Shown here: positions 22,685 to 63,959 of the stretch, piece after piece
How the letters are laid out: the number at the start of each line of letters is the position of its first letter
Numbering within the stretch: the first letter of the stretch is position 1
Source of the DNA: Leptotrichia sp. OH3620_COT-345
Lineage (GTDB): Bacteria; Fusobacteriota; Fusobacteriia; Fusobacteriales; Leptotrichiaceae
Reading direction: 5' to 3'
Length of the DNA: 64,000 nt
Assembly: GCF_003932895.1 (NCBI RefSeq)
Contig: NZ_RQYW01000008.1
Span: 1-64,000, forward strand
Notes under the pieces: model-generated
Database searches by the model: none
What the model saw: only the letters and a program-made list of their open reading frames with translations
Told to the model about the DNA's origin: nothing
Program-made: the position numbers and the translations under genes

Positions 22685-24067
22685 CTATTTTAAATCTTTT
22701 TTAGAAAGACTCTCCACCACTATTCCAAATTCATCTTCTCTTAAAGTTCTCATATCAAGAATAATACTGTTTTCTTTAATTCTTGTAATAATCGGGATTT
22801 TTTCTTCAAGAAGCTTTTTCTCTATTTCTGTCGAAGACTTTATATTATGAGTTAATTTTACCGCTATACTTTCTAAATAACTGCTCGGATAACTTCCCCC
22901 TCCTACTTCTGCCCGTTCTTCAATTATTTCAGATAAAAATCCGGTATTCTTCAACTGTTTTACAAAATTTTTCGCTTTTTTCAGAAGCTTTTCCTTTGAA
23001 ATAGAAATCATATGTAATGTAGGTATTTCTTTTAAAGCCTCATTTTTATCCAAATACAGTTTAAGGGTTGCTTCCAATGCTGCAATGGTCATTTTATCCA
23101 CACGCAATGCACGTGTAAGCTGATTTTTCTTCATTTCTTCTATATAATTTTTTTTACCTACAATTATTCCTGCCTGAGGCCCTCCTAAAAGTTTATCTCC
23201 ACTGAAAGTCACTACATCCATTCCACTATCCAGCACTTCTTTTACAGTAGGTTCATAAGGCAGTCCGTATTCTCTGAAATCTATAAATTGCCCGCTTCCT
23301 AAATCATTTATGGCTATAAGTCCATGCTCATGAGCAAGCTCTGCGACTTCTTTGTTAGTTACTTCTTTTGTAAATCCTGTTATTTTATAATTACTTGTAT
23401 GTACTTTCAACAATGCTGCCGTATTTTCATTAATTGCACTAATATAGTCTTTCAAGTGAGTTTTATTTGTTGTTCCTATTTCATTAGGAATTCCTCCGCT
23501 TAACTTTATAATTTCAGGTATTCTGAACGCTCCCCCTATTTCAACAAGTTCTCCTCTTGATACGATTATTTCCCTATCTTTTGACAATGTATTAAGAGTA
23601 AGCATTACAGCTGCGGCATTATTATTTACCACAAGAACATCTTCAGCTCCCGTCAGTCTTTTAATAATATCCGTCAAATGATTATAACGACTTCCTCTTT
23701 TTTTCCCTTCAATATCAAATTCAAGATTAGAATAATTAAACGCTGTTTCTGTTAAATGTTCTTTTACTCGATCACTTAACAGGCTACGTCCAAGATTTGT
23801 ATGTAATATTGTTCCTGTTGCATTAATAACACGTCTTAAAGAAAATCTATCCTGTTTTTTTACTTCCTCCATCAGTTTCTTGATAATTTCCTCCATCGAT
23901 GGAATCTCGGCTAATTTACCCTGTAGTACATTCACTTTAATATTATCTATTTCTTTTTTCAAAATATCTTTTACAAATATTTCAGGATGTTCATCTAATA
24001 GTTGTTTTACCGTATCTGTTAATAAAACTTTATTTATAGACGGTATCTTTGATAGCAGATGTTTCAT
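22685..24067 (-). CDS. selA: L-seryl-tRNA(Sec) selenium transferase SelA
   Basis: A 460-residue PLP enzyme of normal length that turns seryl-tRNA(Sec) into selenocysteinyl-tRNA(Sec) using selenophosphate. The N-terminal tRNA-binding domain is followed by NATGTILHTNLGRSLL, the EIGTTNKTH motif, NDLGSGQFID, and the PLP lysine K292 in FSGDKLLGGPQAG. The ATG has an AAGGAG box. It is the last gene of the selenium cassette and follows selB by 62 bp. Identification is secure. Confidence 0.98.
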   Translation of the reverse strand: MKHLLSKIPSINKVLLTDTVKQLLDEHPEIFVKDILKKEIDNIKVNVLQGKLAEIPSMEEIIKKLMEEVKKQDRFSLRRVINATGTILHTNLGRSLLSDRVKEHLTETAFNYSNLEFDIEGKKRGSRYNHLTDIIKRLTGAEDVLVVNNNAAAVMLTLNTLSKDREIIVSRGELVEIGGAFRIPEIIKLSGGIPNEIGTTNKTHLKDYISAINENTAALLKVHTSNYKITGFTKEVTNKEVAELAHEHGLIAINDLGSGQFIDFREYGLPYEPTVKEVLDSGMDVVTFSGDKLLGGPQAGIIVGKKNYIEEMKKNQLTRALRVDKMTIAALEATLKLYLDKNEALKEIPTLHMISISKEKLLKKAKNFVKQLKNTGFLSEIIEERAEVGGGSYPSSYLESIAVKLTHNIKSSTEIEKKLLEEKIPIITRIKENSIILDMRTLREDEFGIVVESLSKKDLK

Positions 24068-24129
24068 TTTTTCTCCTTTATGATATTTATATATTTCAGA
24101 AAAATCACTCCAACCTTTTTGTAATTTCC

Positions 24130-26007
24130 TTATTTTCCTAAAATTCTGTAATCTTCCACTCTTTTTGTTATTCCCTGTCTATCCATATATTCAAGAATAG
24201 GCAATGCATACTTTCTACTGGAGCCTGTCACATCACGGAATTCTGCCAATGTCAATTTTTTATTATTTTCAAAGTGTTTTAACACTTTTTTTTCAGCTTC
24301 TTCAAATACTTTGGTATGAATAACAATATCATCATCCAATTTTATAAGAGTAGCCCCTACAAGAGAATTCAATAATTCGTTTGACTTCCTGTCACCTTTT
24401 GTAATCTCTTTTATACCCGGCGGTGTAAATTTACTTTCTAAAAGTATTTTTTCTATACGTTCTTTTTCTTTCAGTTGAGCAGGATCATATTTTACCTCAA
24501 AATCATAGAGAGAAATAAAGTTTCCTTGAGCTTTTAAATTTTTATTATTTATAAGTAATTCCATTATTGCAGCAAGTTCTTTCTGATTTATTTTAAATTT
24601 TGAAAATAACTCGGCTTTGTATATTCCCGGTTTCAGCTTATATTTTTCATGATAATCTCTTATTATACCTGAAATTTTTTCACGGATTTCTTCATATTTT
24701 TTATTATGTATATATCCTGACGGCATTCTGTGCACTATGCCTTCCTCTATCAGTTCTAATAAATCTGCCGCTACACTGTCCATATTTTGTTCAAGTTCTT
24801 TGGAAATTTCCTCTGTTGTAATCAGATAATTATGAGCAGTTAAAATGTAGTTTGAAATCAGGTCCTTACTATTACCCTGTAATCTGACTTTCAGTTTATT
24901 CAGGATTTCTTCATTAAACCTGCTATGTTTTTTTGGAGCGGCATCTAAAACCACTCCTCCTCCCACAGTAATCATAGGCGAATAAGTTCTTATAATAAAT
25001 TTATCATAATTTTTCACTGAGACTTCTTCTTCGAGTCGGAATTGGGCAAATCCGCTTTTTCCAGCCTCAAGGACTTCACTTCCAAGAGGAACTATCCTTG
25101 CCATTACTTCAGAAGTTCCTATATATAACCTCACTCTGTCCCACAACTCAAGCTCTGAATCAGAATTGTTTATTATTTTTACTTCAGTATCAAGCATATA
25201 TGTCTGAGTTAATGTATCAGGAGTTGCCAGTGTACACCCTCTACCCGCATCCTCCATTTTTACATTACTCAAACTTATTGCCGTTCTTTGCCCTGCATAA
25301 GCGGTCTTTACATCTGACTTATGTACCTGAATGTTTCTGACTTTTGTTTTAATATTTTTAGGATAAATTTCCAATTCATCTCCCACTGAAATTTCTCCTT
25401 CAGTTAAAGTCCCTGTAACTACTGTTCCAAATCCTTTCACTTGAAAGGCTCTGTCAACATTCAGCCTTGCATTTTTACTTTTTTTCATTTCAGCTACTTT
25501 TTCCGTTTGAATATCAATTTCTTTAAGAAGTAAATCTATCCCTTTTCCGCTTATGGAATCTACTTCAATTATAGGACTGCCTTCAAGAGAAGTTCCTTTT
25601 ATGAAGTCTTCTATTTCCTCTTTGACCAGTTCCCTGTACCCGTCTTCTGCCAAATCAGCCTTTGTCATTACTATTATATAATTTTCCACACCCAGCAGAG
25701 AAAGTATGTCCGCATGCTCTCTCGTCTGAGGCATTATTCCCTCTCTCGAATCTACTAAAAGCAATACAAGATTAATCCCACTCACTCCTGCAAGCATATT
25801 TTTTATAAATTTTTCATGTCCCGGGACATCAACGACTCCGCATCTTTTTCCACTCGGCAAATCAAAATAGGCAAATCCGAGATTAATTGACATTCCACGT
25901 TCTTTCTCTTCTGCCGTCGTATCGGTTTCAATTCCGCTGAGAGCTTTAATCAAAGTCGTCTTTCCATGATCAATATGCCCTGCTGTTCCTATTATTATAT
26001 TGCTCAT
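24130..26007 (-). CDS. selB: Selenocysteine-specific elongation factor SelB
   Basis: A 625-residue GTPase that brings Sec-tRNA to UGA codons marked by a SECIS hairpin. The G1 motif GTAGHIDHGKTT is at the N terminus; DVPGHEKFIKNML (G3) and MTKADL (G4) follow; then come the EF-Tu-like domains, an extra domain IV, and C-terminal winged-helix repeats that bind the SECIS (DLLELIEEGIVHRMPSG and PILEYMDRQGITKRVEDY). Its SECIS partners in this window are grdA, the three grdB-type genes and selD. Confidence 0.98.
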   Translation of the reverse strand: MSNIIIGTAGHIDHGKTTLIKALSGIETDTTAEEKERGMSINLGFAYFDLPSGKRCGVVDVPGHEKFIKNMLAGVSGINLVLLLVDSREGIMPQTREHADILSLLGVENYIIVMTKADLAEDGYRELVKEEIEDFIKGTSLEGSPIIEVDSISGKGIDLLLKEIDIQTEKVAEMKKSKNARLNVDRAFQVKGFGTVVTGTLTEGEISVGDELEIYPKNIKTKVRNIQVHKSDVKTAYAGQRTAISLSNVKMEDAGRGCTLATPDTLTQTYMLDTEVKIINNSDSELELWDRVRLYIGTSEVMARIVPLGSEVLEAGKSGFAQFRLEEEVSVKNYDKFIIRTYSPMITVGGGVVLDAAPKKHSRFNEEILNKLKVRLQGNSKDLISNYILTAHNYLITTEEISKELEQNMDSVAADLLELIEEGIVHRMPSGYIHNKKYEEIREKISGIIRDYHEKYKLKPGIYKAELFSKFKINQKELAAIMELLINNKNLKAQGNFISLYDFEVKYDPAQLKEKERIEKILLESKFTPPGIKEITKGDRKSNELLNSLVGATLIKLDDDIVIHTKVFEEAEKKVLKHFENNKKLTLAEFRDVTGSSRKYALPILEYMDRQGITKRVEDYRILGK

Positions 26008-26048
26008 ATATTTTCCCTCTTTCTCAAATATTATAACTTTTCAATAAA

Positions 26049-26321
26049 TTATTTCTCATCTTCATACAATAGTTCTATCTCTCTCTTCATTCCCGTCTTT
26101 TTAGAATAATATAACGCTCTGTATCTTATATTTTGATTTTCCAACATTTTTATAAGATTACTGAAGTTATTCCATCCTGTTTTTAACATAAAACCGCAAC
26201 CTAAAGAAATATCAGGATGTACAGGAACAAGATCGGCATCGACATTTTGTGATAGACAAATATTATCCGCTTTTATTGAATCATGAGTATCATAAAATAC
26301 TACCAATCCTTCTTTTATCAT
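26049..26321 (-). CDS. DUF3343 protein (putative Se/S carrier-like)
   Basis: A 90-residue cytoplasmic protein matching the DUF3343 family, which Pfam names putative Se/S carrier protein-like. It has EGLVVFYDTHDSIKAD at the start and a conserved-looking core HPDISLGCGFMLKTGW near residue 35 with one cysteine that could carry selenium or sulfur. It begins 8 bp after the yedF stop and sits between yedF and selB, which strengthens the link to selenium. The exact role is unproven. Confidence 0.85.
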   Translation of the reverse strand: MIKEGLVVFYDTHDSIKADNICLSQNVDADLVPVHPDISLGCGFMLKTGWNNFSNLIKMLENQNIRYRALYYSKKTGMKREIELLYEDEK

Positions 26322-26329
26322 ATCTGCAC

Positions 26330-26944
26330 CTACGGATGAATTACTTTATTTTTTCGCATATCTTCTACAATAAAATACATATTTGTCGGTTTTCCTATTG
26401 CAATTTCTACATTATAATATTCAAGACATACTCCACAACAAACAATTTCTACACCTTTATTTTCAAGCTCTTTTAATTCGGATAATACATGACTTCTATT
26501 TTTATCCACAAGTATTGCTCCTTCATTATAAAAAACTATTTTTTTCGGTAATACTTCCTGTTCGGACAGAGCATATAAATATGCTTTTATGAGCTTATTT
26601 CCAAGTTCGTCACTTCCATGTCCCATCGTTTTTTTGTTAATTACCGTTATATAATTATTATTGAATGTTTTAATATTTTTTTCATTTCCGTCTTTCTGAA
26701 TAATATTATTTTCAGTAACATTTACAATTTTTTTACTTGATATTGTGACTTTATATTCTTCATCGGATATTTTTTCAAAATTAAAACTGTAGTCCAACTG
26801 AGTTGCAAGTTTTTCCAAATTTTGAGTGGCAATAACATTATCTACTGTTGTTTCTACGATATCATATTCAGTCAGAAGTTTTTTTGTCTCTATTACAGGC
26901 AGAGGACATGCCATTCCTTTCGCATTCAATTCATATTTTTTCAT
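26330..26944 (-). CDS. yedF: Sulfurtransferase-like selenium metabolism protein YedF
   Basis: A 204-residue protein with an N-terminal TusA/SirA domain carrying the conserved CPLPVIETKKLL motif (catalytic-type Cys14) and a C-terminal DsrE-like domain with YNEGAILV and VEIVCCGVCLEYY, rich in cysteine. Such two-domain YedF proteins are found with selD in many Sec users and may deliver selenium to SelD; this is an inference from context in the family. It follows selD by about 108 bp in the same direction. Confidence 0.9.
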   Translation of the reverse strand: MKKYELNAKGMACPLPVIETKKLLTEYDIVETTVDNVIATQNLEKLATQLDYSFNFEKISDEEYKVTISSKKIVNVTENNIIQKDGNEKNIKTFNNNYITVINKKTMGHGSDELGNKLIKAYLYALSEQEVLPKKIVFYNEGAILVDKNRSHVLSELKELENKGVEIVCCGVCLEYYNVEIAIGKPTNMYFIVEDMRKNKVIHP

Positions 26945-27052
26945 TTTCTTTTCTCCTTATAATTAATCATTTTGTTTTTTAGTTATAGGATTTTTTTATT
27001 TTCTAAATCTTTCTTATTTAAAATTTCGTTACATTAACTTACATATTAAAGC

Positions 27053-28078
27053 TTATAAAACTATTACATCTTTATACTGTCTTTCTGTAACTTTTCCCAC
27101 TATTGCACTTTTAATTTCAAGTTTGTTCAGTTTTTCCAAGAGTTCTTCTCCATATTCTGAAGGAACACTTATAAGCAATCCCCCTGATGTCTGAGGATCA
27201 TACAATATTTCTTCCAGTGCAAAATCTTTTATTTTAAATTCCACTTTATCCTGTAAATAATTTCTGTTCAACTGCCCTCCCGAAGTAATTATAAATTCTC
27301 CTGCACAATGATGTGCTTCAGGCAGCATAGGTATATTTTCAGAAAAAATTTCTGCCGAATATTTATTATCCAACATTTCCGTAAGATGTCCCAGAAATCC
27401 GAAACCTGTTATATCGGTACAGCTGTTTACAGGATAATCGTTCATAATTTCAGCCGCATACTTATTCAGTGTAGTCATTTGTCTGACACAGATATTAAAT
27501 GTTTCTTCAGAGCATTCATTTATCATATATGCTGAATTAATAATACTCACTCCTAAAGGTTTCGTAACTATAAGAACGTCTCCCGGCTTACAGCTGTTGT
27601 TCATCAGTATTTTATCAGGATGAATAATTCCTGTGACTGACAGCCCGTATTTCGGTGTAACATCATGGATAGAATGTCCTCCTGCAAGAACTCCTCCCGC
27701 TTCATGTACTTTTTCCGCTCCTCCTTTTAATATTTGACGCAATACTTCCATATCCATTTTTTCAGGGAAAGCTACTATATTTAAAGCAGATATGACTTTG
27801 CCGCCCATTGCATAAATATCACTAAGTGCGTTTGTAGCTGCAATCTGTCCGTATAAATAAGGATCATTAATCATTGTAGTAAAAAAGTCCAATGTCTGGA
27901 TAATAGCTTTGTCATCTGATATTCTGTATACTGCGGCATCGTCTGAAGAGTCATACCCTACTATAAGGTCTTTATCTTCTTTTTTAGGTAACCCCTTTAA
28001 TAAATCTGAAAGAGCTCCCGGCCCGATCTTGGAGTTTCATCCGCCACAGACTGTCATGTTCAACTTTTTATTTTCCAT
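27053..28078 (-). CDS. selD: Selenophosphate synthetase SelD, itself a selenoprotein
   Basis: Makes selenophosphate from selenide and ATP. The frame runs from the ATG at 28078 (GGGAGGAG box upstream) through an in-frame TGA at 28037-28039, giving 341 residues with Sec14 in MTVCGGUNSKIGPGAL. The Sec/Cys at this place is the known catalytic residue of SelD, and Sec-containing forms are common. DSSDDAAVY, GGHSIHDVTPKYGLSVTG and CTDITGFGFLGHLTEML are further family motifs. A weak hairpin (CTCC/GGGAG) follows the TGA as possible SECIS. Automatic calling starts it wrongly at 27892. Confidence 0.96.
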
Positions 28079-28160
28079 ACATTCTCCTCCCAAATTACTT
28101 TGACTTTATTCAAATTATAATTTTATTATAACATTTATTCCTTCCTTTTCAAAGTATTAT

Positions 28161-28196
28161 AAAACAAAAACACCGCTTTAAACTAATGATAGGCGG
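28161..28196 (-). terminator. Possible terminator between selC and selD
   Basis: On the minus strand CCGCCT and GCGG-type arms (28091-28096 region of the line, 28173-28178 with 28191-28196) close a loop of about 12 bases and are followed by TGTTTTTGTTTTA. It could end the tRNA-Sec transcript. Confidence 0.5.
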
Positions 28197-28236
28197 CATT
28201 TAAACAAATATCTATTTTCGATTTCTTTTTTTTAAT

Positions 28237-28333
28237 TGGCGGGAATGTGTGGGAATCGAACCCACCTAAGAGGCTCTTAACCCCTCACACCGGTTTTGAA
28301 GACCGGAGAGCACACCAGAACTCATCCACTCCC
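28237..28333 (-). tRNA. selC: tRNA-Sec (anticodon UCA), selC
   Basis: A 97-base minus-strand tRNA starting GGGAGTGG and ending ACATTCCCGCCA with the CCA encoded. It has the anticodon stem-loop CCGGTCTTCAAAACCGG with anticodon TCA at 28297-28299. It has a long variable arm (GTGTGAGGGGTTAAGAGCCTC region) and a T arm GTGGGTTCGATTCCCAC. Length, long acceptor and variable arms and UCA anticodon identify tRNA-Sec. It lies upstream of selD and has its own promoter. Confidence 0.97.
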
Positions 28334-47505: not shown

Positions 47506-48813
47506 CTATACCTTAAATACAGTTTGTCCGTCTACTTCTTTAGTCAAAGCATCTAATGCCACTGAAACTCTGTGTTCTCTCAGTTCATACTGCTCTTCTT
47601 TAGATGTAGCAGGATCTCCTAAAGGATAAGGAATAGATATAGTAGGTACTATTTTATTTACTCCTACTGTAAGAGCAACCGGTACTAAGTTACACATTTG
47701 AACTATAGGTATCCCAGCTTTTTCAATTTCTTTAACAATCGTTGCACCGCAACGTGTACAAGTACCTCAAGTGGAAACCATTATAACGCCGTCTACATTA
47801 TCGGCTTTTAAATGTTCCAACATTTCTTTACCCATTCTCGAAGCTTCTGCCTGAGTAGTTCCGGTACCTACTGTACTGTAGAAATAGTCATGAAGCTTTC
47901 CGTAAACTCCTTTTTTCAATAAATCTTTCATTACATCTAAAGGTACAATTACATTTGGATCATTGTCGGCAGCAGCAGGGTCAAATCCTGCATGAATAGT
48001 CTTAAATTCTCCCGATTTAAGTCTATCCATTTTTGATATATCGTATCTTCCCCATCTTGTAGCAGAAGCGGATTGTATTCTGTCCGGATTATCTACAGGA
48101 ACTATACCTCCTGTTGTTAAAACTGCAATTTTAGCACTTTTTAAATCTTTTATAGGTGCTGCAACAGGAACGGAATCTTTTTTAGGTATAGGAAGTTCAG
48201 TCTGAAACTCTTCACCTTTAAGTTTTTTGATAAGCATATCTACACCACGTTTAGCAGCACTTACTTTGGAGTCAAGCCATACCTGGTGTCTTATTCCTCT
48301 TGCAAAATAACCGTTTTCTTCAGCTCCTCCTGTTTCTTCATTTTTAAGAACTTTGTCTATATATTTTGTAACCGCTTCAGCATCATTTTTCATAGAAGCG
48401 GCTGAACGTCCTCCTTCAAATATAGGTATTTCCTTTTTAAACATTTCCACTCCCGGATTTTCTACGTTCATGGAAGTCACTACAGGAACATTATATTTTT
48501 CCTTAATTGCTTTACAGATGTTTCCACAAGCCACTCCATATCTTCCGGCTTGAAATGCAGGTCCTGCTATAAACACGTCAAAATCCAGATCTTTTATTAA
48601 TTCCAATATCTCAGCTATTGCTTCATCTTTATTTGACCCCATATAGTTGTCACCGCAAATAATTGTATGAGTAATTTGAGCTTCTTTCATTGCTGCATTG
48701 AAAGCCATTCCCGGACCCACAACTCCTTCCTGTAACACAGGTTTGAAATCAGCCTTGTCCTCTCCTCCTATTCCTCCAAAAAATTGATTTATATAAAGAA
48801 TTGCCTTTTTCAT
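47506..48813 (-). CDS. grdH: Betaine-type reductase component B selenoprotein (GrdH-like)
   Basis: A GrdB-family subunit of substrate-specific protein B, 435 residues when the TGA at 47767-47769 is read as Sec349. The Sec lies in VSTUGTCTRCGATIVKEIEK, where GrdB-type proteins always carry it. Sec attacks the substrate carbon to give Se-carboxymethyl-Sec, later passed to GrdA. N-terminal motif ILYINQFFGGIGGEDKAD. It is co-transcribed with the grdI-like gene (46 bp) and a BCCT transporter, so betaine is the likely substrate. Conventional calling splits it in two. Confidence 0.92.
47740..47769 (-). promoter_or_regulatory. SECIS-like hairpin of grdH
   Basis: Twelve bases after the UGA a perfect stem CGTTGC/GCAACG with loop GGT (47740-47754). 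The loop begins 19 bases after the UGA, the same place as in the E. coli fdhF SECIS known to bind SelB. Confidence 0.8.
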
Positions 48814-48859: not shown

Positions 48860-50188
48860 TTAAAATTCTTTCATAGTTTTTATAGACCAACCCGCTATAG
48901 CATCACCGCAGAACATAGCATTGTTTTCCATAATGATAGAACCGTCTTCTTTCACACTTGAGCCCAGTATTTCATCATGAGCCCATCCTCCTGATAAACC
49001 GTCTCTTGCCAGTGATTGAAGTTCTCCTATAACTTTTTTAGCTGCAGGAAGTTTTATAAGTTCAGACACATTTCCTGTAGAAACAAGTGCATTTGCTTTC
49101 TCATCAAGCACAACTAACGGTTGACTCGCACCATCTCTACCTGTACATTCATTACTTATACCCACTACTTTAACTCCTACATCTTCCAGTGCTACTATAC
49201 ATCTGATATAGTCTGTATCAGGATTTCCATATCCTTCTTCTGTAACTATAGCCCCGTCAGCTCCTAAAGCTTTTGCTAAATTAGCTACGAAAATTGCCGA
49301 TCTTTCTTTCTGTTCCAATGAAACATTCAAGTTTGAAAGTATAACTCCTAAGAAATTTATAGATTTACCGTGCTCATTGTATAATTCTTTAATTGTAGGA
49401 AAATTCTGCATATCATATGTTGACCATTTAGATGAAGCAGGCATGAATGAACCTGATATAATAGCTCCGTCAAGTATTTCATTAGGATTTACAAATGAAG
49501 GTACGTAATGGTTCAAATCCCAACCATATATTAAATCATTATATCCCATTTCTTCCATTTGTGACTGTGGCTGCATTACAAGTACTACACTCGGTAATTT
49601 TTCCACATCTGAATTTCTGTTTCTTACAGCTTCAAAATTGTATTCTTCTATATCACTGGACGTTTCAGACAATACACATTTAGCAAGATATTCAGCAAAT
49701 TTATGACTTGCCCATCTGATTGCTCTGTTTTTTTTCTGTTGCTCATGTCTTTCAAATTCTTCGTCAGTATCCGCAACTAAACATATATTTATAAGCTCTC
49801 CGTATATAGTATACTTCTGCCCTTCTCCCGACATATCGATCAAACCGTCTCCGAATGACCCCCAGTGCATACCTACACCAAGTACGGAAACTCCTTTAAG
49901 AGCATATAGATCTCCTTCACCGCATGGAGAAAGCTCTCCTGTTACTCCCGGAAACGTAGCTCTCCCGTCTTTTCTTGCACGAGGTTCTACAGCTTCTTTA
50001 ACAGGTACAATACGTATATCTTCTCCCGGTTTTGCGATTTCTATATCTACATTTGTAATATGCTTATCTTCTTTTATAAAGTTTATAGCTTCTTCCTTGT
50101 TTATATATAAAACTTTATTTTCGTATTTTGTCTTATCTCCAAATACAACATCTTCTACATGAAAATTATGGATTCTTAATTTTTTCAT
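48860..50188 (-). CDS. grdI: GrdE-family component B subunit lacking the pyruvoyl cysteine (GrdI-like)
   Basis: A 442-residue member of the GrdE/G/I family. In glycine-type subunits the chain is cleaved before a Cys in DGAIVSGNC to make a pyruvoyl group that binds the amine. Here the matching segment reads DGAIISGSFMPASSK, with Phe248 in place of Cys, so cleavage and pyruvoyl formation appear impossible. Betaine, a quaternary amine, cannot form a Schiff base, and the purified betaine protein B is reported with uncleaved 45- and 48-kDa subunits. With the BCCT gene upstream, a betaine reductase role fits well. AGGAGG precedes the ATG. Confidence 0.88.
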   Translation of the reverse strand: MKKLRIHNFHVEDVVFGDKTKYENKVLYINKEEAINFIKEDKHITNVDIEIAKPGEDIRIVPVKEAVEPRARKDGRATFPGVTGELSPCGEGDLYALKGVSVLGVGMHWGSFGDGLIDMSGEGQKYTIYGELINICLVADTDEEFERHEQQKKNRAIRWASHKFAEYLAKCVLSETSSDIEEYNFEAVRNRNSDVEKLPSVVLVMQPQSQMEEMGYNDLIYGWDLNHYVPSFVNPNEILDGAIISGSFMPASSKWSTYDMQNFPTIKELYNEHGKSINFLGVILSNLNVSLEQKERSAIFVANLAKALGADGAIVTEEGYGNPDTDYIRCIVALEDVGVKVVGISNECTGRDGASQPLVVLDEKANALVSTGNVSELIKLPAAKKVIGELQSLARDGLSGGWAHDEILGSSVKEDGSIIMENNAMFCGDAIAGWSIKTMKEF

Positions 50189-50205: not shown

Positions 50206-51705
50206 TTATTTTAATTGATTATATTGTTCATCTTCTTTTAGTGCTTTCATTATTGATATTATAGTCAGTAGCATTATAAATGCGAATGGAAATGCCGCTA
50301 CAATGGATATCGTTTGCAACATTGTAAGACCATTTGCCGAACCTACCATTAATGATAATGCCAAAGCTGACTGTACTATTCCCCATACTAATTTCTTTGA
50401 GTTAGGCGGATTCAAATCACCGTTATGTGATAACATTCCCAAAACGAATGTCGCCGAATTCGCGGAAGTAATAAAGAATGTAAACAGTAAAGCTATAGCT
50501 ATTACAGATATTACATTTCCTAATGTTATATTATTTATAACAATAAAGAATGCTGTCGATGCATTATTTGCAGCTTCTACAAGAATTTCCTTTCCCATTG
50601 AGAAATCTATTGCACCGAAAATAGAGAACCAGAAAAATGATACTACTGACGGTACAATAAGTACACCGCTTATAAATTCCTTAATAGTACGACCTTTTGA
50701 TATTCTCGCTATGAAAGTTCCTGTAAATGGTGCCCATGCAATCCACCATGCCCAGTAAAACAAAGTCCATAATCCATACCAGTCAGTTTTACTGAATGCA
50801 CCTATTTCAAATGTATTGGATAGTAAACTCTGTAAATAATTTCCTGTGCTTTCTCCAAAAATATTAAGTATATCAATAGTCGGTCCAAATATAATTGACA
50901 GTCCAAGCAGTGCTACAACTAAAATCATATTTAGGTTGGAAATTAATTTTATTCCTTTATCAATACCTGTTACAGCTGTCCATGTATATATAATAGTAAT
51001 AATTACTACTATAGCTATCTGTATAGTAGAATTTTCAGGTACTTTAAACATAAAATTCAGACCACTGTTTATCTGATATGTTCCCAATCCTAAAGATGTT
51101 GCCATTCCCGCTGCCGTAGCAAATATTGCCAATATATCAATCAGCTTCCCGATATATCCGTTAGCCTTTTCTTCCCCTATAAGCGGTATAAATAAGCTAC
51201 TTATCAATCCGGGCTTATTTCTTCTGAACTGCATATATGCAAGTCCCAGACCCAATATACTGTAATTAGCCCATGGATGTAAGCCCCAATGAAGGAATGA
51301 CTTAGTCATAGCAAATTTTGCAGCATCTACTGACATTGAATCATAACCTACAGGATTGACATAATGATAAAGAGGCTCATATATACCGTAAAAAACCAGT
51401 CCTATTCCCATTCCTGCAGAAAACAGCATAGCAAACCACGAGATATTACTATATTCAGGCTTGGAATCATCAGGACCTAATTTCATATCCTTATACTTGC
51501 TGAAATATGCTATCCAAACAGCAAAAACTATAAAACATGTCATTGCTATTGTATAAAACCATCCGAAATTACGAACTATCCCTTTCAGAAGCATATTACC
51601 AAACGTCTCAAATCCTTTCGGAAATACAAGACCGCATAACACAACAATAGTTATAATCGAAACCGAAATTATATAAACTGAATTGTCTTTTGTTTTTTCG
51701 CTCAT
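50206..51705 (-). CDS. BCCT-family transporter (betaine/choline/carnitine type)
   Basis: A 499-residue protein with 12 transmembrane segments. The BCCT motif GMGIGLVFYGIYEPLYHYVN is near residue 90, and the aromatic box for quaternary ammonium binding is seen in WTLFYWAWWIAWAPFTGTFIARISKGRT near residue 310 (by position). It couples uptake of a betaine-type substrate to sodium or protons. It lies 17 bp before grdI, in the same operon, which is the main evidence for the substrate of that reductase. Confidence 0.92.
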   Translation of the reverse strand: MSEKTKDNSVYIISVSIITIVVLCGLVFPKGFETFGNMLLKGIVRNFGWFYTIAMTCFIVFAVWIAYFSKYKDMKLGPDDSKPEYSNISWFAMLFSAGMGIGLVFYGIYEPLYHYVNPVGYDSMSVDAAKFAMTKSFLHWGLHPWANYSILGLGLAYMQFRRNKPGLISSLFIPLIGEEKANGYIGKLIDILAIFATAAGMATSLGLGTYQINSGLNFMFKVPENSTIQIAIVVIITIIYTWTAVTGIDKGIKLISNLNMILVVALLGLSIIFGPTIDILNIFGESTGNYLQSLLSNTFEIGAFSKTDWYGLWTLFYWAWWIAWAPFTGTFIARISKGRTIKEFISGVLIVPSVVSFFWFSIFGAIDFSMGKEILVEAANNASTAFFIVINNITLGNVISVIAIALLFTFFITSANSATFVLGMLSHNGDLNPPNSKKLVWGIVQSALALSLMVGSANGLTMLQTISIVAAFPFAFIMLLTIISIMKALKEDEQYNQLK

Positions 51706-51890: not shown

Positions 51891-52283
51891 CTAAATTATA
51901 CGTGGAATAATATTATCTATTACCGATAAATCTATGGTTTTAAAATCTTCCGTTACTTTCCTTTCATAATTTTCAGGAGTACGGGCTATATCTTGCCATT
52001 GCCTGAAAGTCTCTATACATTTTTCTATAAGGAGTATGTCTTTTGTATTATCTTCCCCATCATTCCTAGGATACACCATTACGGATCTGTAAGGCGTCTG
52101 ATTAGGTTTAAGACTTGATGCCTGAGGATGAGTCAGAAGGATATATCTGTCATAAACAAAATTTCTCACTTTAATTAAAACTTCCTCATATTTTTCTACA
52201 AAGACACATTGTAGCATATTTTTATATTTTTCATAGACTTTATCGTTATTAGTAACAAGTATCACCTTTTCTATATTCCACAT
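51891..52283 (-). CDS. grdX: GrdX family protein
   Basis: A 130-residue cytoplasmic protein that matches GrdX, a small family found with glycine/betaine reductase genes. N-terminal KVILVTNNDKVYEKY, then DRYILLTHPQASSLKPNQTPYRS and a C-terminal IDNIIP. Its role is unknown. It heads the BCCT-grdI-grdH operon and has AAGGAG before the ATG; the gap to the BCCT gene is about 185 bp. Confidence 0.85.
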   Translation of the reverse strand: MWNIEKVILVTNNDKVYEKYKNMLQCVFVEKYEEVLIKVRNFVYDRYILLTHPQASSLKPNQTPYRSVMVYPRNDGEDNTKDILLIEKCIETFRQWQDIARTPENYERKVTEDFKTIDLSVIDNIIPRII

Positions 52284-53606: not shown

Positions 53607-53643
53607 ATATCGATTCCTCCTGCTATTATTTTAGTTTAAAATT

Positions 53644-54963
53644 CTAAAAGTCATCTTTTTCAAAAACAGTCTGTTCTGTAACCGGAGTCTGTAATACTTT
53701 GAGAGCTCTTCTAACCATACGTTTACGTATTTTTTTAGAATCTTCCTCACCTTGTGTAGGATCACCAAGAGGATAAGGTATTCCTACACCGGGAATAATT
53801 CTATTTGCACCTATTGTAAGTGAAATCGGAACTACTGTTGCCATATGAACTACAGGTATTCCATATTTTTCAATTCCTTTTACCATCGTTGCACCGCAAC
53901 GTGTACAAGTACCTCAGGTACTTACAAGGATAACCGCATCTACATGTTCATCAATAAGTTTCTGCCCTATTTCAGTTCCGAATTTCGCAGCTGAACCTGT
54001 AGCAGTCCCGGTACCTGTTGTGGAATAAAAAATATTGTAAAGTTCTCCGAATTCTCCATCTTTTTCCATTTCTCTCAATACATCAAGAGGAACTACAAGA
54101 TTAGGATTTTCCATAACAAACTGACGATCATATCCTCCGTGAATTGTAGTAAAATCTTTTGCCGATAATTCACTCATTCCTTCTATAGAATAAGAACCGA
54201 ATTTAGTAGCATTTGAAGATTCTATGTGGTCAGGGTTTCCGGTAGGAACCACTCCTCCTGACGTTACTATAGCTATTTTAGCTTTTTTAATATCTTTAAC
54301 AGGTTCTGCAGGATCTACTCTATCAAACTTAGGCATAGGAAGATCCGTTTCAAATTCCTCACCTTTCATTTTCTTAACAAGCATTTTTACTGCCCTTGCT
54401 GAAGCTCTTTCATCGGCGAAATAATTAACTCTTATTCCTCTTTCATGATAACCTTCAATTGAAGGTCCCAATATTTCTTCACCTTTTGCCATTTTCTTAA
54501 CAAGAGCAGCAACATTTTCTACGGACTTTTTCATATCAGCTGCAGAATTTCCGGTTTTAACTATAATAACATCTTTACGGAACATATCTACTCCCGGATT
54601 TTCTTCGTATGCTGCAGTAACTACAGGTATTCCTAAATTTTCTTCCACAGCTTTACATATAGTTCCACAAGCGACTCCATAACGTCCCGCATTAAATGCA
54701 GGTCCTGCTACAAAGACATCAGGAGTAAATTTTTTTATCATTTCCAAAACAGTTTCAGTAGCCTTTTCCAAATTTTCACCGAAGTAGTTATCTCCACATA
54801 TAATTGTAGCTACTACTTCATATTCATCGCCCAATGCAGTTTGAAGTGCCATTCCCGGACCTACCGGACCTTCTTTTACTTCAGGTTTATGATCGGCTTT
54901 TTCTTCTCCACCTATACCGGCAAAAAATTGATTTATATAATGTACTACTTTATATTTTTTCAT
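53644..54963 (-). CDS. grdF: Second-substrate reductase component B selenoprotein (GrdF-like)
   Basis: A GrdB-family selenoprotein of 439 residues; the TGA at 53914-53916 is Sec350 in VSTUGTCTRCGATMVKGIEK. The ATG at 54963 would lie 9 bp closer to the gene, and its AGGAGG box is properly spaced, unlike the ATG at 54972. It pairs with the GrdE-type gene just upstream (15 bp). The neighbouring AGCS and YkvI transporters suggest sarcosine or glycine; the family sequence alone does not decide between GrdF and a second GrdB. Confidence 0.9.
53887..53916 (-). promoter_or_regulatory. SECIS-like hairpin of grdF
   Basis: CGTTGC-GGT-GCAACG at 53887-53901, twelve bases after the UGA; identical to the grdH hairpin. 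Confidence 0.8.
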
Positions 54964-54977
54964 AATTTTCATCCTCC

Positions 54978-56267
54978 TTAATATCCTCTTGCAGCAAGAC
55001 GATTAAATCCATTTGCTATTGTAGATGCTATTATAATTTGAATTTCCGCTTCAAATGAGCCGTCTTCATTAACACATCCGGCCCAACCACCGATTTGACT
55101 TTCTATGTATTCCATAGTTCCTATTACTTTATCCATAACAGGGAACTGTAAAGTAGCATTCCCCTGACCGCATGAAGCAAGTGCAGTAGCTTCTTCACAA
55201 GTATCGGCAAGTGACTGAGATTTCCCATCTTTTCCTGGAAATTCATCTGTTACAAGAACTACTTTAACCCCTTTTCTTTCTACCTTACGACAGTTCATCA
55301 TAAGATCCGTATCAGGGTTTCCGTATCCTTCTTCAGTTATAATAACTCCATCAAGACCCATCCATTCAGCAAGTTTTGCAACCATATCCGAATGACGTTC
55401 CTTATCTGCAAGAAAGACATTTTCATTAGTCAGGATAACTCCCATAAAATTTATGTCTTTTCCATGATGCTTATAACAGTCCTCAATAACGGGATTATGG
55501 AAATGGTGATATGTAGTAACTTTATCACATGGAGCAACACAGTTACCTGAAACTATCGCTCCATCCATAATTTCTGTAGGATACATAAATGTAGGAACAA
55601 ATTGTTTTGCATCTACTCCATAGTAATAAGTGTCGTGCAGAAGTCCTTGAGATTGCAGCATATGAACATACCCTACTTTAGGAAGATCAGGATACATAGC
55701 AGCCTGTTCAAATACAGGTTTTGTTTCATATACTTCTAAAACATCAGGCTCAAGGTTTCTTGCCGTTTCCCCTAAAAATGCAGCTACTTTAAGTCCCGCT
55801 ATACGTCCGGCTTTTTCATACACATGTGTTTCCAAACCTGCTTTAGGCTCTATAACTACACAAAGATTTACTGTTTGCGAAAAAGGACAGTAATCTGCGG
55901 CAGGACCGCTCATATCTATTACACCTTCCTGAAAACCTACTATACGCCCTACAGTAAGTACACAGCATCCGTCAAGAGTATGTGTTCTTCCTTCTCCAAC
56001 TGTAGGACTTACTTTTCCGATTACTCCCGGAAATATTTCTCCTCCTCCACTTACTTTAACACGAGGTTCTATCACATCTTTTACAGGCGTTATTCTTGTT
56101 TTTTCTCCCGGTCTTGCTATATCAAGCTTACATCCTATAAGTTTATCATCCTCCAGAACCAGTTTTTCAACTTCTTCCTTATTCACATAAAGAATATGAT
56201 TTTCAACATAAGTTCTATCTGAAAACTGAATGTCATTTATTTTGATTTTTCCTAATTCTAGTTTCAT
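54978..56267 (-). CDS. grdG: GrdE-family component B subunit (GrdG-like)
   Basis: A 429-residue proprotein. The segment MDGAIVSGNCVAPCDK contains Cys243, expected to be cleaved to an N-terminal chain and a pyruvoyl-carrying chain, as in the glycine and sarcosine enzymes. Other family motifs: IARPGEKTRITPVKDVIEPRV and TEEGYGNPDTDLMMNCRK. The pair grdG-grdF is downstream of the AGCS transporter in one operon. The name assumes sarcosine; a second glycine set is the alternative. Confidence 0.88.
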   Translation of the reverse strand: MKLELGKIKINDIQFSDRTYVENHILYVNKEEVEKLVLEDDKLIGCKLDIARPGEKTRITPVKDVIEPRVKVSGGGEIFPGVIGKVSPTVGEGRTHTLDGCCVLTVGRIVGFQEGVIDMSGPAADYCPFSQTVNLCVVIEPKAGLETHVYEKAGRIAGLKVAAFLGETARNLEPDVLEVYETKPVFEQAAMYPDLPKVGYVHMLQSQGLLHDTYYYGVDAKQFVPTFMYPTEIMDGAIVSGNCVAPCDKVTTYHHFHNPVIEDCYKHHGKDINFMGVILTNENVFLADKERHSDMVAKLAEWMGLDGVIITEEGYGNPDTDLMMNCRKVERKGVKVVLVTDEFPGKDGKSQSLADTCEEATALASCGQGNATLQFPVMDKVIGTMEYIESQIGGWAGCVNEDGSFEAEIQIIIASTIANGFNRLAARGY

Positions 56268-58058: not shown

Positions 58059-59201
58059 TTATGATAACAACCCTTCAGTTTTTAAAATTTCTTTAGACTT
58101 TTCCTTATTTCCTTTACTTACTAAAATGATAGGACCTGTACATCCCATTCCACTTTCGGCATAAATGTTGTGTTTCCACAATAATTTTGCGGCATCTTCC
58201 AGATCCATAATATCAACACCTGAAATTTGAGATGTTACAACTTCTTTCTCAGGCATCTTTATTTCCTCTGAAGGCTTTGTATCCTGTTTTTTATTTTTCA
58301 TTTCAGAGAAAATTTTGTCCAATCCTGCATTCTGTGCTTTTTTATATTCTTCCCTTGCTTTTTCATTAACTTTTCCTAAAGCTACTTCATAACCATATTG
58401 TAAAGCTTTTGCAACAACAGGAGAACCTGAAGCTCTTGAAAGAATTAATATTCTTCTGTCATAATTTTCACCTACTCCAGGACCATATCCGTATCCCTGA
58501 GCCTCATAATCTCCTCCTGTAGTATATGAAGAGAAAATTTTCATAAAAAGATTTCCTGTTAATGAATCAGTAACCATTACATCAGGAGTTCCCATCAATA
58601 AATCATTACCTCTCATCACTGCTCCTCCATCAGCTCTCTGAGATTCGGTAAATTTAAAATCATACCCGTTTTTCTGAAGTTCAAGCAATACTTTTTCAGT
58701 CTGTCTTGCACCTTCTATGTTTATAATTCCCACTGTTGGCTGTTTTATTCCGGCTGATTTTGCAGTGGCTATTCCATATATCGCATTTCTTACCATTGCT
58801 TCCACTCTATCAGTTGCCGATGTACCTGTAGTAGTTGCTATAAACATCTCATTTCCTTTCCCCGGAGTTATTACTCTACCTACTGTGGAAACTCCAATAG
58901 GAAAATTATAGTGCATTGTAACACATGAGGATATTTCTCCTTTGTCCAACAACTCTTCCATTATTTTATGTGCTTCGTCTTCAGAATCGGTTTCATAGCT
59001 TTTAAAATCTTTATGACCTTTTCCTATTAAAACTATATCAAACAAATTATTTTTAGCCAGCTGTGCTCCTTTTATAACATTGTCAACACCGTGTTCACTA
59101 CCTAAAGTTGTTATTCCTACTTTTATTTTTTCTCCGAAATTCCCTGTTTCAATAGCCTCCGCTACTTCCAACAACACTTCGGAAATTATTTTTTTACTCA
59201 T
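58059..59201 (-). CDS. grdD: Glycine reductase component C, GrdD
   Basis: About 380 residues. With GrdC it forms protein C, which accepts the carboxymethyl group from GrdA as an acetyl thioester and releases acetyl phosphate, a source of ATP. Family motifs: VGITTLGSEHGVDNVIKGAQLA, FIATTTGTSATDRVEAMVRNAIYGIATAKSAG (by position) and a C-terminal GMGCTGPIILVSKGN with a conserved Cys. The start at 59201 is preferred because GGGGTGAT lies before it; the longer frame overlaps grdC. Shared by all three substrate sets, judging from the single copy here. Confidence 0.93.
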   Translation of the reverse strand: MSKKIISEVLLEVAEAIETGNFGEKIKVGITTLGSEHGVDNVIKGAQLAKNNLFDIVLIGKGHKDFKSYETDSEDEAHKIMEELLDKGEISSCVTMHYNFPIGVSTVGRVITPGKGNEMFIATTTGTSATDRVEAMVRNAIYGIATAKSAGIKQPTVGIINIEGARQTEKVLLELQKNGYDFKFTESQRADGGAVMRGNDLLMGTPDVMVTDSLTGNLFMKIFSSYTTGGDYEAQGYGYGPGVGENYDRRILILSRASGSPVVAKALQYGYEVALGKVNEKAREEYKKAQNAGLDKIFSEMKNKKQDTKPSEEIKMPEKEVVTSQISGVDIMDLEDAAKLLWKHNIYAESGMGCTGPIILVSKGNKEKSKEILKTEGLLS

Positions 59202-59211
59202 TGTATCACCC

Positions 59212-60729
59212 CTACTCTTCTGCAATATTCTGAGCAAGTTTTTTAATTGATTCAGCTATTATCTTTTTAATTTCATCTTTAGACACTGAACTTTCTTCGG
59301 CTTTCATCCCTGTATTTCTTTCAGCTATGAATGATACACCGTCAAATAAGTTTGTCATTCTTCCTAAGAACAGACTTCCTTTTCCAACAATCATAGCTCT
59401 GTTTTTATTTCCTGTAGTCAAATCATCACAAAGGAATCCCACATAAGGTACTCCCGATGGAATATGTCCTTGTGTTGGAGCCCATCCCGGCAATCCTTTT
59501 TCTTCTATAAATGATTTCAAGTTGGCTTTTTCCATTTCTTTACGTAATACAGCCAGAGCTCCTATCATTTTATAGTTTGCTTCAGGTACATTCCCTGCAC
59601 CCGCCGCCATTGTTATATCAGGATTCTGCATTTCTACGGAGTAAACATCTACATCTGTTATTTTTAATCCTGCCTTATCTAGTCCCGGAGTTACCAATGC
59701 TGATATAACAGCTTGTGGAGAAGATCCTGTTCCTACATTGTGTTTTCCTACTAAATCAGTTCTGATTATTGGATTTACACCATCATTTTCCGAAATAAGA
59801 ACTGCAAATCCTCCAAGTACGTCTTCCAGTACGGGTATTCCTTTCTTAACATGATCTTTAGCGTTCATTCCAAGTTTTGCAGTTGCTCCTCCTGCAACTA
59901 CCATAACATTTTTATAAACACCTGATTTAACTAAAGCGGCAGCACTTATCAACGCATGCGTAGGTGCCGCACAGAAACCTCTCAAATCAGACCCTGTGGC
60001 ATTTGTAAGGTTGGCAGCTTCAGCTATAGCTTTGGCGAAGTTTCCTCCTCCACGCTGATTCACATCCCCACATGCTTCTTCTGAACATTCTATAACATAA
60101 TCTATATCCTGAGGATTTACTTTGGAAGCTTTTAGCAGTTCCAACGCAGATATTATACCTGATGCTTTTACTACAAGATTTTCAAACATTACATGTGAAT
60201 TCAAGTTAGGATCTACATCATGGGCTCTTTTAACATATCCCACAACTTTTCCGTCATGTACCAGTGGTTGATCCGCATCGCTCATATCACTGATATCCGA
60301 ACCTTTTAACTGTCCGAATAAATGAGACAGTTCACTAAAATTTTTTTCTACTTTCGGTAATACTTCTTTTATAAATTCCTCTGACAACTTTACTAAATCA
60401 AAAGCATCAGATAATTTCATTATTGCTAAAAATTCATCTTGAGGAACTATCTGACCGAATTTTCCGTAACGATCCCCTTTCTGATCTTTTATATCATACC
60501 AAGGCATCGGATAAGTGTTCAATTCTTCAGGAGTTTTTTTCCCTATGTACACTTGATTCGGCAAATAATTAACTACTTCTTCGTATGTTCTTATATGATT
60601 TTTTATATTTTGCAAAAATTCCGAATCAGGATTTGTTATTTTTTCTATTGAACATGTCGAACCGCTTTCAATCATGTCCGGAGTATGAACTAGCACATAT
60701 CCTGCTCCTTTAAATACTGGATAATTCAT
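59212..60729 (-). CDS. grdC: Glycine reductase component C, GrdC
   Basis: A 505-residue thiolase/KAS III-like subunit of protein C. The N-terminal NYPVFKGAGYVLVHTPDMI is typical; the nucleophile region is DLRGFCAAPTHALISAAAL near residue 250 with the acetyl-accepting Cys. GWAPTQGHIPSGVPYVGF near residue 425 also fits. It lies 10 bp before grdD. Upstream of its ATG there is a strong hairpin instead of an ordinary ribosome site. Confidence 0.95.
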   Translation of the reverse strand: MNYPVFKGAGYVLVHTPDMIESGSTCSIEKITNPDSEFLQNIKNHIRTYEEVVNYLPNQVYIGKKTPEELNTYPMPWYDIKDQKGDRYGKFGQIVPQDEFLAIMKLSDAFDLVKLSEEFIKEVLPKVEKNFSELSHLFGQLKGSDISDMSDADQPLVHDGKVVGYVKRAHDVDPNLNSHVMFENLVVKASGIISALELLKASKVNPQDIDYVIECSEEACGDVNQRGGGNFAKAIAEAANLTNATGSDLRGFCAAPTHALISAAALVKSGVYKNVMVVAGGATAKLGMNAKDHVKKGIPVLEDVLGGFAVLISENDGVNPIIRTDLVGKHNVGTGSSPQAVISALVTPGLDKAGLKITDVDVYSVEMQNPDITMAAGAGNVPEANYKMIGALAVLRKEMEKANLKSFIEEKGLPGWAPTQGHIPSGVPYVGFLCDDLTTGNKNRAMIVGKGSLFLGRMTNLFDGVSFIAERNTGMKAEESSVSKDEIKKIIAESIKKLAQNIAEE

Positions 60730-60761: not shown

Positions 60762-60784
60762 ATCTCCTTTCTGAATTATAAGAT

Positions 60785-62095
60785 TTAATTTTCGAACACT
60801 GTCTGGCTTGTCACTTCTGTAGTCAGTGCTTTTAATGCTTTATCAACTAATTTTCTTCTTAATTTTTTTTCTTCTTCTTTTTCTAATGTTGGATTCCCCA
60901 ACGGATGAGGTATCGCTATAGTCGGAACGATTCTGTTTGCTCCAACTGTAAGAGAAATAGGTACAACTGTACACATATGAACTACAGGTATTCCTGCTCT
61001 CTCTATTTCTTTTGCCATCGTTGCTCCGCAACGCGTACAAGTACCTCAAGTAGACGTTAAAATAACAGCATCTACTCCATCAGCTACTAATTTGGCACCA
61101 ATTTCCGCTGCAAATGCTTTCGCATTGGCAACTGCCGTCCCGTTACCTACAGTAGTATAAAATTTTTCATGTAACTCTCCTACTGCACCTTCCTTTACTA
61201 AATCACGTAATACATCTACCGGCAATACACGATCTGAATCCAAATTGGCATATACAGGATCGTATCCTCCATGAGCTGTTTCATGTGTTTCTTCAGTTAA
61301 ATTCTCAAAGTCCTTCAAGAAATATTCTCCATATTTTGAGGCTGAAGAGGATTCAATATGATCAGGATTCCCTTTAGGTACAATTCCTCCTGATGTCACT
61401 AAAGCGATCTTCGCCTTGGATAAATCTTTAACTGCCGCATTAGGCTCGACACGGTCAAAATTAGGCATCGGATATTCAGTTTCAAAAGATTCACCTTTTA
61501 TTTTCTTTATAAGCATATCCACTGCACGCTTTGAACCTCTTTCTTCATGAAAGAAATTCACTCTCACTCCTCTCGGAATATACCCTTCTTCTCCCGGAGA
61601 AAGAATTTTTTCGCCTTTAGACAACTTTTGAGCAAATTTCGCCAATTTCGGCAGAGCATTTCTCATACCTGCTGCACTATCCGATGTTTCAATAATATAT
61701 ACATCTTTTTTATACATATCCACACCCGGATTTTCAATATACATAGCAGTTACAGACGGTATGTGCAATTTATCCTGAACAAGTTTAGTAATTGTTCCTG
61801 CGGCAACTCCATAACGACCTGCATTAAATGCCGGACCTGCAATAAATAACTGAGGTTCTAGATTTTTTATCATTTCCAGTAGAGTAATTTGCACTTTTTC
61901 CAGATTTTCATTGAAATAGCTGTCACCACATACTATCGTTCCCACTATCTCAAAATCTTCTCCTAATTGTCCTTGTAATTGTTGTGATATTGGCGGAAGT
62001 TCCTTTCTAAGTTCCGGTTCGATATGGGCTTTTTCTTCTCCTCCAACTCCTGCAAAGAATTGGTTTATATAATGTACTACTTTTATTTTAGACAT
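60785..62095 (-). CDS. grdB: Glycine reductase component B selenoprotein GrdB
   Basis: A 436-residue selenoprotein, exactly the usual length, when the TGA at 61046-61048 is read as Sec350 in TSTUGTCTRCGATMAKEIER. It carries the glycine-specific active site together with GrdE and gives Se-carboxymethyl-Sec for transfer to GrdA. N terminus KVVHYINQFFAGVGGEEKAH. AGGAGGTAA precedes the ATG. Position between grdA and grdC matches known glycine reductase operons. Confidence 0.95.
61019..61048 (-). promoter_or_regulatory. SECIS-like hairpin of grdB
   Basis: CGTTGC-GGA-GCAACG at 61019-61033, twelve bases after the UGA. Same stem as in grdF and grdH, but the third loop base is A. Confidence 0.75.
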
Positions 62096-62129: not shown

Positions 62130-62591
62130 TTACTCCCCACGCACTTCTTTCATTTCTTTTGAAATTTCTTCAACATCCAATACCATTTCCATCATTCCTA
62201 CCTGTTCTTCATAAACAGAAGGGTCAACTTGTTCTTTCATCGCTTCTTCTACAATATGGTATACACCAAGATTTAATGCAACTCCTGCTAAAGGCCCTGC
62301 AAAAGTAGGATCTCCAACAGTTACTGTTTCAGCTGCTAGACCAGCAGCTTCGGCTTCTGATGCACCTAATAAAACTACAACGTTTTCTGCACCGAATTTT
62401 TCGGCAGCTTCTTTAACACGTTTTTGGTTTTCTAAGTCCATCGCACCTGCAGCCGTTCAGACAAAGCATTCTGTAGATGAAAATACTACTTCTGCTCCGT
62501 CTATAGTTTTTACACATTCTTCGATAGCTAATCCGGGTATTCCGTCTCTATCGCCGATAATAATTACTTTTTTATCTTTAAGACTACTCAT
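62130..62591 (-). CDS. grdA: Glycine reductase selenoprotein A, GrdA
   Basis: A 153-residue selenoprotein; the TGA at 62457-62459 is Sec45 in [18 protein letters not shown]. The CxxU pair is the redox centre that takes the carboxymethyl group from protein B and hands it to protein C, and is later reduced by thioredoxin. [21 protein letters not shown] is at the N terminus. Conventional calling starts it at 62441 and loses the active site. GGAGG lies before the ATG at 62591. Confidence 0.96.
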
Positions 62592-62672: not shown

Positions 62673-63959
62673 TTAGTAAGTCTTTGCACTTAAGTATCCA
62701 AATCCTGTTTCATTTGTAGCTCCTGTAATTGCCTGAATTTCCACTTCAATAGTTCCGTCTTGTCTCAACGAATCTTGATTTCCTCCTGCAATTACATTTA
62801 CCACATCTATATGTCCGATTACTTTATCCAATTTTGGTAATACTATTACCTGATTGGCATTTCCTCCTGTTACTACTGCATCAGCTTTCGGATCAGCATC
62901 TGCAAGACTTTGGCTTGCTCCATCCTGTCCTGCATACTCATCAGTTACAATAACAGTTTTTACACCTTCATTTTCAATTTTTTTACAGTTCATTATCAAG
63001 TCGGTATCAGGATTACCGAATCCTTCTTGAGAAACAATAGCAGCATCCAAGCCTAAATATTTTGTAAACTTCGCTGTCCAATTTGATGATCTTTCTTTAT
63101 CTGCCAGATAAACATTCTCATTTGTTATGATTACACCTAGGAAATTAATTTCCTTTCCGTGTTTTTCATACAACTCTTCTATTACTCCGTTATTCAAATG
63201 AACGTAAGTAGGATTTTTATCACATGCAGACACACAATTTCCACTTACTATCGCTCCATCCATAATTTCTGTAGGATAAAGAAGTGTAGGAACTATCTGT
63301 TTTGCATCTACTCCGTATACGTAAGTATCATGCAACAAACCCTGTGTCTGAAGCATATACACATATCCCACTTTAGGCAAATCAGGATACTCGGCTATCT
63401 GCTCAAGTAAAGGTTTTGTTTCATATACTTTTACTTCTTCCGGTTCCAAATTTCTTGCCAATTCCCCCAAATATCTAGCTGCTTTAAATCCTATATAACG
63501 TACAGCTTTCTCATGCTCATGCTGCTTTACTCCTTCTGCCGGTTCAGCAATAACAACTAAATTATTTAACTTTGAGAATGGTGTGTATTCAGCTCCAATT
63601 CCGGTCATATCAATAATACCTTCTTGGAAACCTACAATTTTACCTGTAGTTACTACAGCCATACCTTTAAGGGCTATTGTTTTCCCTTCTCCTACAGTAT
63701 CCACTTTTGATAAAATACCGGGAAATATTCCTCCACGACCTTCAGTCTTTACACGTGGTTCAATTACATCCTTTACAGGAGTAATACGTATGCTTTCTCC
63801 CGGTCGAGCTATTTCGAGATCCACAGATACGATTGCTTCATCATTCCATATTTCCTTAATAAGTTCTTCCTTATTGACATATAAAACATTTTTTTCAATT
63901 TTTGATTCTGAAGCAAATTGAATATCTTTTATATGAATCTTTCCTAATTCAAGACGCAC
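62673..63959 (-). CDS. grdE: Glycine reductase component B subunits alpha/beta, GrdE
   Basis: A 428-residue proprotein of standard length. Cys242 in MDGAIVSGNCVSACDK is at exactly the position known to be cleaved to form the pyruvoyl group in clostridial GrdE. It uses a GTG start (63959) with GGAGG nine bases upstream. First gene visible of grdE-grdA-grdB-grdC-grdD; the thioredoxin genes that often precede it would lie beyond the right edge. Confidence 0.96.
   Translation of the reverse strand: MRLELGKIHIKDIQFASESKIEKNVLYVNKEELIKEIWNDEAIVSVDLEIARPGESIRITPVKDVIEPRVKTEGRGGIFPGILSKVDTVGEGKTIALKGMAVVTTGKIVGFQEGIIDMTGIGAEYTPFSKLNNLVVIAEPAEGVKQHEHEKAVRYIGFKAARYLGELARNLEPEEVKVYETKPLLEQIAEYPDLPKVGYVYMLQTQGLLHDTYVYGVDAKQIVPTLLYPTEIMDGAIVSGNCVSACDKNPTYVHLNNGVIEELYEKHGKEINFLGVIITNENVYLADKERSSNWTAKFTKYLGLDAAIVSQEGFGNPDTDLIMNCKKIENEGVKTVIVTDEYAGQDGASQSLADADPKADAVVTGGNANQVIVLPKLDKVIGHIDVVNVIAGGNQDSLRQDGTIEVEIQAITGATNETGFGYLSAKTY

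Follow-up and report, generated by a model that had tools for sequence, protein, structure and literature searches.

The window, by which we mean the whole 64,000-nucleotide stretch of DNA that was analyzed, contains an intact open reading frame at 48860–50188 on the minus strand that encodes a PF09338 protein of 442 amino acids, with coordinates and strand exactly as previously described. Around it, the gene order is grdE-grdA-grdB-grdC-grdD, an AGCS symporter, grdG-grdF, a putative transporter, grdX, a BCCT transporter gene, grdI (the gene of interest) and grdH. These features, together with the selenocysteine machinery, are listed below.

22703..28333, minus strand: selenocysteine machinery, whole region
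22703-24052, minus strand: selA
24142-25998, minus strand: selB
27158-28060, minus strand: selD, with an in-frame TGA
28237-28333, minus strand: tRNA-Sec
47506..48813, minus strand: grdH, betaine reductase selenoprotein B, 435 amino acids (NF040795 betaine_GrdH, 800.6 bits, cut-off 775), with Sec349 read through TGA at 47769-47767
47729..47766, minus strand: SECIS element immediately after the UGA of grdH (Rfam RF01990 SECIS_4, 59.3 bits, gathering 38)
48860..50188, minus strand: grdI, betaine-specific protein B alpha subunit (PF09338, 597.9 bits over 3-440; GrdI clade; 66% identity to Eubacterium acidaminophilum GrdI)
49447-49445, minus strand: Phe248 codon TTC, aligned with the Cys from which GrdE/GrdG form the pyruvoyl group (from the sequence and column counts)
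50206..51705, minus strand: BCCT-family betaine transporter (PF02028, 598.3 bits; NF047988, the NCBIfam 'glycine betaine' equivalog, 615.6 bits, just under its cut-off of 650)
51891..52283, minus strand: grdX-family gene (NF038093, 133.5 bits, cut-off 40)
53643..54972, minus strand: grdF, sarcosine selenoprotein B, Sec353 (TGA 53916-53914; SECIS 53876-53913)
54978..56267, minus strand: grdG, sarcosine protein B alpha pro-protein, SGNC kept with Cys243 (NF040793, 874.7 bits, cut-off 780)
58059..59237, minus strand: open reading frame that we take to be grdD, shared protein C subunit, from family knowledge and position (Pfam FA_synthesis)
59212..60729, minus strand: open reading frame that is presumably grdC, shared protein C subunit, on the same grounds (Pfam ACP_syn_III and DUF5940)
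60784..62095, minus strand: grdB, glycine selenoprotein B, Sec350 (TGA 61048-61046; SECIS 61008-61045)
62130..62591, minus strand: grdA, selenoprotein A, in-frame TGA 62459-62457 (direct sequence reading)
62673..63959, minus strand: grdE, glycine protein B alpha pro-protein, SGNC kept with Cys242 (PF09338, 709.1 bits)

As in grdH, a SECIS_4 element directly follows the UGA in both grdB and grdF. Because selD carries an in-frame TGA, SelD of the window is probably itself a selenoprotein.

Residues 240-248 of the window GrdI read DGAIISGSF, while GrdG and GrdE of the same window have DGAIVSGNC at the equivalent site, and the aligned translations thus uphold the preliminary description of this difference between the three paralogues. 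The Cys of SGNC is residue 243 in GrdG and 242 in GrdE, and its column is occupied by Phe248 in GrdI; GrdI also has Ser252 in place of the second Cys that is conserved in GrdE/GrdG. The pyruvoyl-bearing peptide of Clostridioides difficile GrdE spans amino acids 242-266 (PMC9908766) and so also starts at residue 242, which indicates that the column compared here is the correct one. GrdE (glycine reductase) and GrdG (sarcosine reductase) share with GrdI the PF09338 family, the length and the protein B role, at 40-41% identity within the locus. However, they are pro-proteins with an Asn-Cys cleavage site, the Cys of which becomes the pyruvoyl group, whereas this processing site is absent from the window GrdI, which has Ser247-Phe248 in its place and lacks the second Cys. 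No NCBIfam model claims the window GrdI itself, and the sarcosine_GrdG model gives it 324.5 bits against a cut-off of 780. Its membership in the GrdI group is instead apparent from a full-length PF09338 match within the GrdI clade, the Ser-Phe/Tyr site, the loss of the second Cys, and the GrdH and BCCT neighbors. The clade, the GrdH neighbor scoring above its NCBIfam cut-off, and the adjacent BCCT gene all bear out the earlier assignment of this paralogue to betaine.

An alignment-based scan of species genomes yielded 80 named GrdI loci (from Bacillota, Fusobacteriota, Spirochaetota, Synergistota and others), and further family members were retrieved from Fusobacteriota and Synergistota, as well as from selected genomes. 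The resulting 198 distinct family sequences include 92 with Ser-Phe and 2 with Ser-Tyr (the GrdI group, n = 94), as well as 90 with Asn-Cys (the GrdE/GrdG type). Cys is thus present in 90/90 GrdE/GrdG-type sequences and Phe or Tyr in 94/94 GrdI sequences at the same column; we note that the two sets are delimited by the motif itself, and that a tree of whole sequences splits them identically. In this tree, all sampled Phe/Tyr sequences form one clade with a support of 98, apart from the Cys clade. As the 94 distinct GrdI sequences come from several phyla and all have Phe/Tyr in this column, the Cys-less site is neither a sequencing error nor a chance event. It is fixed in GrdI and has already been published as a hallmark of this subunit; the window adds one more member to the group, from a Leptotrichiaceae genome.

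The genomic context follows the same division. A GrdH-like gene stands beside GrdI in 79 of the 80 loci, and a BCCT gene is found within 6 kb of GrdI in 34 of the 35 loci with full flanks, compared to 0 of 20 GrdE/GrdG-type control loci (most with similar flanks, a few shortened by contig ends). The link drawn in the preliminary description between the BCCT gene adjoining the window GrdI and betaine therefore holds across the sampled loci. Among the GrdH-like sequences, the Ser before Sec (STUG), which has been proposed as a formylglycine precursor (PMC10838667), is replaced by Ala in 8/95 cases, compared to 0/73 GrdB/GrdF-like sequences (raw counts, uncorrected for relatedness); examples of GrdH neighbors of GrdI with this Ala are found at loci L051, L053, L054, L101 and L207-L209.

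Some family members depart further at this site. Two GrdI copies, L108 5884-7326 (Gudongella) and L161 3008-4345 (Acidaminobacter hydrogenoformans), have Tyr in place of Phe248 as well as the substitution P250C (SYMCCSSK), and possibly act on a changed substrate; both genomes also hold a copy with SF. Separately, the uncharacterized GrdE-family subfamilies L212/L217, L213/L218, L155, L156, L219 and L222/L223 have SSHN, TTAHC, SGNY, CMMY, PGGF and NQGG, respectively, at the pyruvoyl site, with a GrdB-like gene adjoining them wherever this was looked at. More than one change of the pyruvoyl column has thus taken place in the GrdE family.

The protein B of betaine reductase has been purified from E. 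acidaminophilum, and this organism thus provides a characterized point of comparison. We identified its genome among genomes of the order by a 100% match of its megaplasmid grdG at the same coordinates, and found two GrdE (SGNC), two GrdG (SGNC) and one GrdI (SGSF), in agreement with the two glycine, two sarcosine and one betaine gene clusters of the genome paper (PMC4056300). The sole GrdI of this organism thus has SGSF and no Cys, so that the alignment proposed in the preliminary description, in which a characterized GrdI retaining Cys would have spoken against the idea, came out in its favor. Like the window protein, E. acidaminophilum GrdI has 442 amino acids and DGAIISGSFMPCSSKWS at the site, and it shares the neighboring grdH and BCCT genes, which come after it in E. 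acidaminophilum; at 66% identity, the two differ only by ordinary orthologue divergence. The sarcosine and glycine clusters adjoin grdI in the window, but lie apart from it in E. acidaminophilum.

The closest relative of the window GrdI in the tree is that of Parvimonas parva (81% identity, SGSF shared), which belongs to another phylum, the Bacillota. The window protein groups with Parvimonas and other Bacillota, away from other Fusobacteriota GrdI, and monophyly of Fusobacteriota GrdI is rejected (p-AU 4.2e-6). Considering also that grd genes are confined to a few genera within the Leptotrichiaceae, the window GrdI was probably acquired horizontally from Bacillota. The nearest relative of the window GrdE, from Peptostreptococcus canis, is also from Bacillota. 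We note that GrdI homologues (66% identity) are located on megaplasmids of Enterococcus raffinosus and E. gilvus, in the latter in the order grdA-grdC-grdD-grdI-grdH-BCCT.

The pyruvoyl group of GrdE is derived from Cys (PMC9908766), and the point that GrdI without this Cys has no Cys-derived pyruvoyl group, which suits betaine, is right, but was already known. The preliminary description went further and proposed that the substrate is held differently. Published opinions differ as to whether substrate binding is a function of the GrdE pyruvoyl at all, such that the absent Cys alone does not imply a new binding mode; in the view of Andreesen, a carbonyl of GrdB binds glycine, and the GrdE pyruvoyl keeps GrdB active (PMC9908766). 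That GrdI may hold its substrate in another way is nevertheless plausible.

In the mechanism that we favor, GrdI and GrdH would form the betaine-specific substrate component, and betaine would be imported by the adjacent BCCT transporter. The nitrogen of betaine is quaternary, which precludes a Schiff base, yet betaine already carries a good leaving group, which would make a direct attack possible: the selenolate of GrdH Sec349 would attack the methylene carbon, with release of trimethylamine, and the resulting carboxymethyl-selenoether would pass to GrdA and then to GrdC/GrdD, to give acetyl phosphate. GrdI would accordingly be no pro-protein, as the literature also has it (PMC10838667), and, having lost both conserved cysteines, would remain a single chain of 48.8 kDa. 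We infer that this direct displacement chemistry operates in this organism.

Aromatic residues of GrdI offer one candidate for how betaine could be held. Alignment columns identify F9, H108, Y216, W223, F248 and F426 as near-invariant aromatics of GrdI that differ in GrdE/GrdG, with W109 and W255 mostly conserved in GrdI. We tentatively suggest, at somewhat less than even confidence, that Phe248 and the GrdI-only aromatics Tyr216 and Trp223, perhaps with His108, Trp109 and Trp255, line a cation-π pocket for the trimethylammonium group. The AF2 model of GrdI has a pLDDT of 86; neither a sequence search nor a fold search (no match at E ≤ 0.001) returned a solved structure of a family relative, and our literature search found no published aromatic-cage model and no glycine reductase structure.

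The preliminary description also held that self-cleavage should fail without the Cys. This stands insofar as the residue that becomes the pyruvoyl of GrdE is gone, but the loss of Cys alone leaves a serine-derived pyruvoyl possible, and serine-derived pyruvoyl groups are the usual kind. GrdI could thus process itself at Gly246-Ser247 or Ser252-Ser253, like classic pyruvoyl decarboxylases, with the carbonyl serving GrdH or keeping it active rather than holding betaine. The contrast between serine-derived and Cys-derived pyruvoyl groups is drawn in the literature (PMC9908766), and the site in GrdI has three new invariant or near-invariant serines: Gly246 and Ser247 are invariant in 94/94 GrdI sequences, making a serine-derived carbonyl formally possible, with Ser247 standing where Asn is fixed in GrdE/GrdG, and Ser252/Ser253 are present in 93/94. 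However, Ser252/Ser253 are missing from the copy at locus L102, and betaine lacks an amine with which a carbonyl could condense. Moreover, the subunit of purified betaine protein B is reportedly of ~48 kDa, which corresponds to the uncut 48.8 kDa calculated for the window protein. As GrdI is, moreover, described in print as no pro-protein (PMC10838667), we consider such processing very unlikely.

Substrates other than betaine must also be weighed, as FarE (fluoroacetate reductase), described in work concerned with Synergistota, is likewise a Cys-less PF09338 protein that is not a pro-protein and acts on a substrate without a condensable amine (PMC10838667), and several Cys-less subfamilies exist. 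GrdI could accordingly act on another small acid that is independent of a Schiff base, such as fluoroacetate or another quaternary or halogenated acetate. Unlike GrdI, however, FarE has WRYW at the site, forms a distant clade of its own and has other partner genes (the neighbors of the window GrdI being grdH and the BCCT gene, not farA/farB), and the window GrdI scores only 175 bits with the FarE model NF053623, the cut-off of which is 675. On the strength of this score, the motif and the tree, we reject membership of the window GrdI in FarE, and an alternative acid is highly improbable. By comparison, a Lachnospiraceae bacterium A77_70 protein (L157 3202-4530) scores 911.7 bits with this FarE model. 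Finally, since GrdE and GrdG of the locus are 40-41% identical to it, the window GrdI might be taken for a decayed or misread copy of one of them that lost its Cys by mutation. The frame of 442 amino acids is intact, though, orthologues in several phyla are 65-98% identical to it, and both the substitution, found in all orthologues, and the partner genes are conserved; we therefore reject this reading on the basis of conservation, and give it practically no credence.

Taken as a whole, the best explanation, which we hold with high confidence, is that the gene is grdI, encoding the betaine-specific alpha subunit of protein B of the selenium-dependent glycine/sarcosine/betaine reductase, with direct displacement as its probable chemistry. 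GrdI and GrdH convert betaine to trimethylamine, which is relevant to gut and vaginal chemistry and to methane production. The comparison also provides a one-column test for a Cys-derived pyruvoyl in protein B subunits, as Cys marks GrdE/GrdG and Phe/Tyr marks GrdI, while FarE and additional subfamilies have yet other residues there; with GrdI as the counterpart, the role of the GrdE pyruvoyl itself becomes testable.
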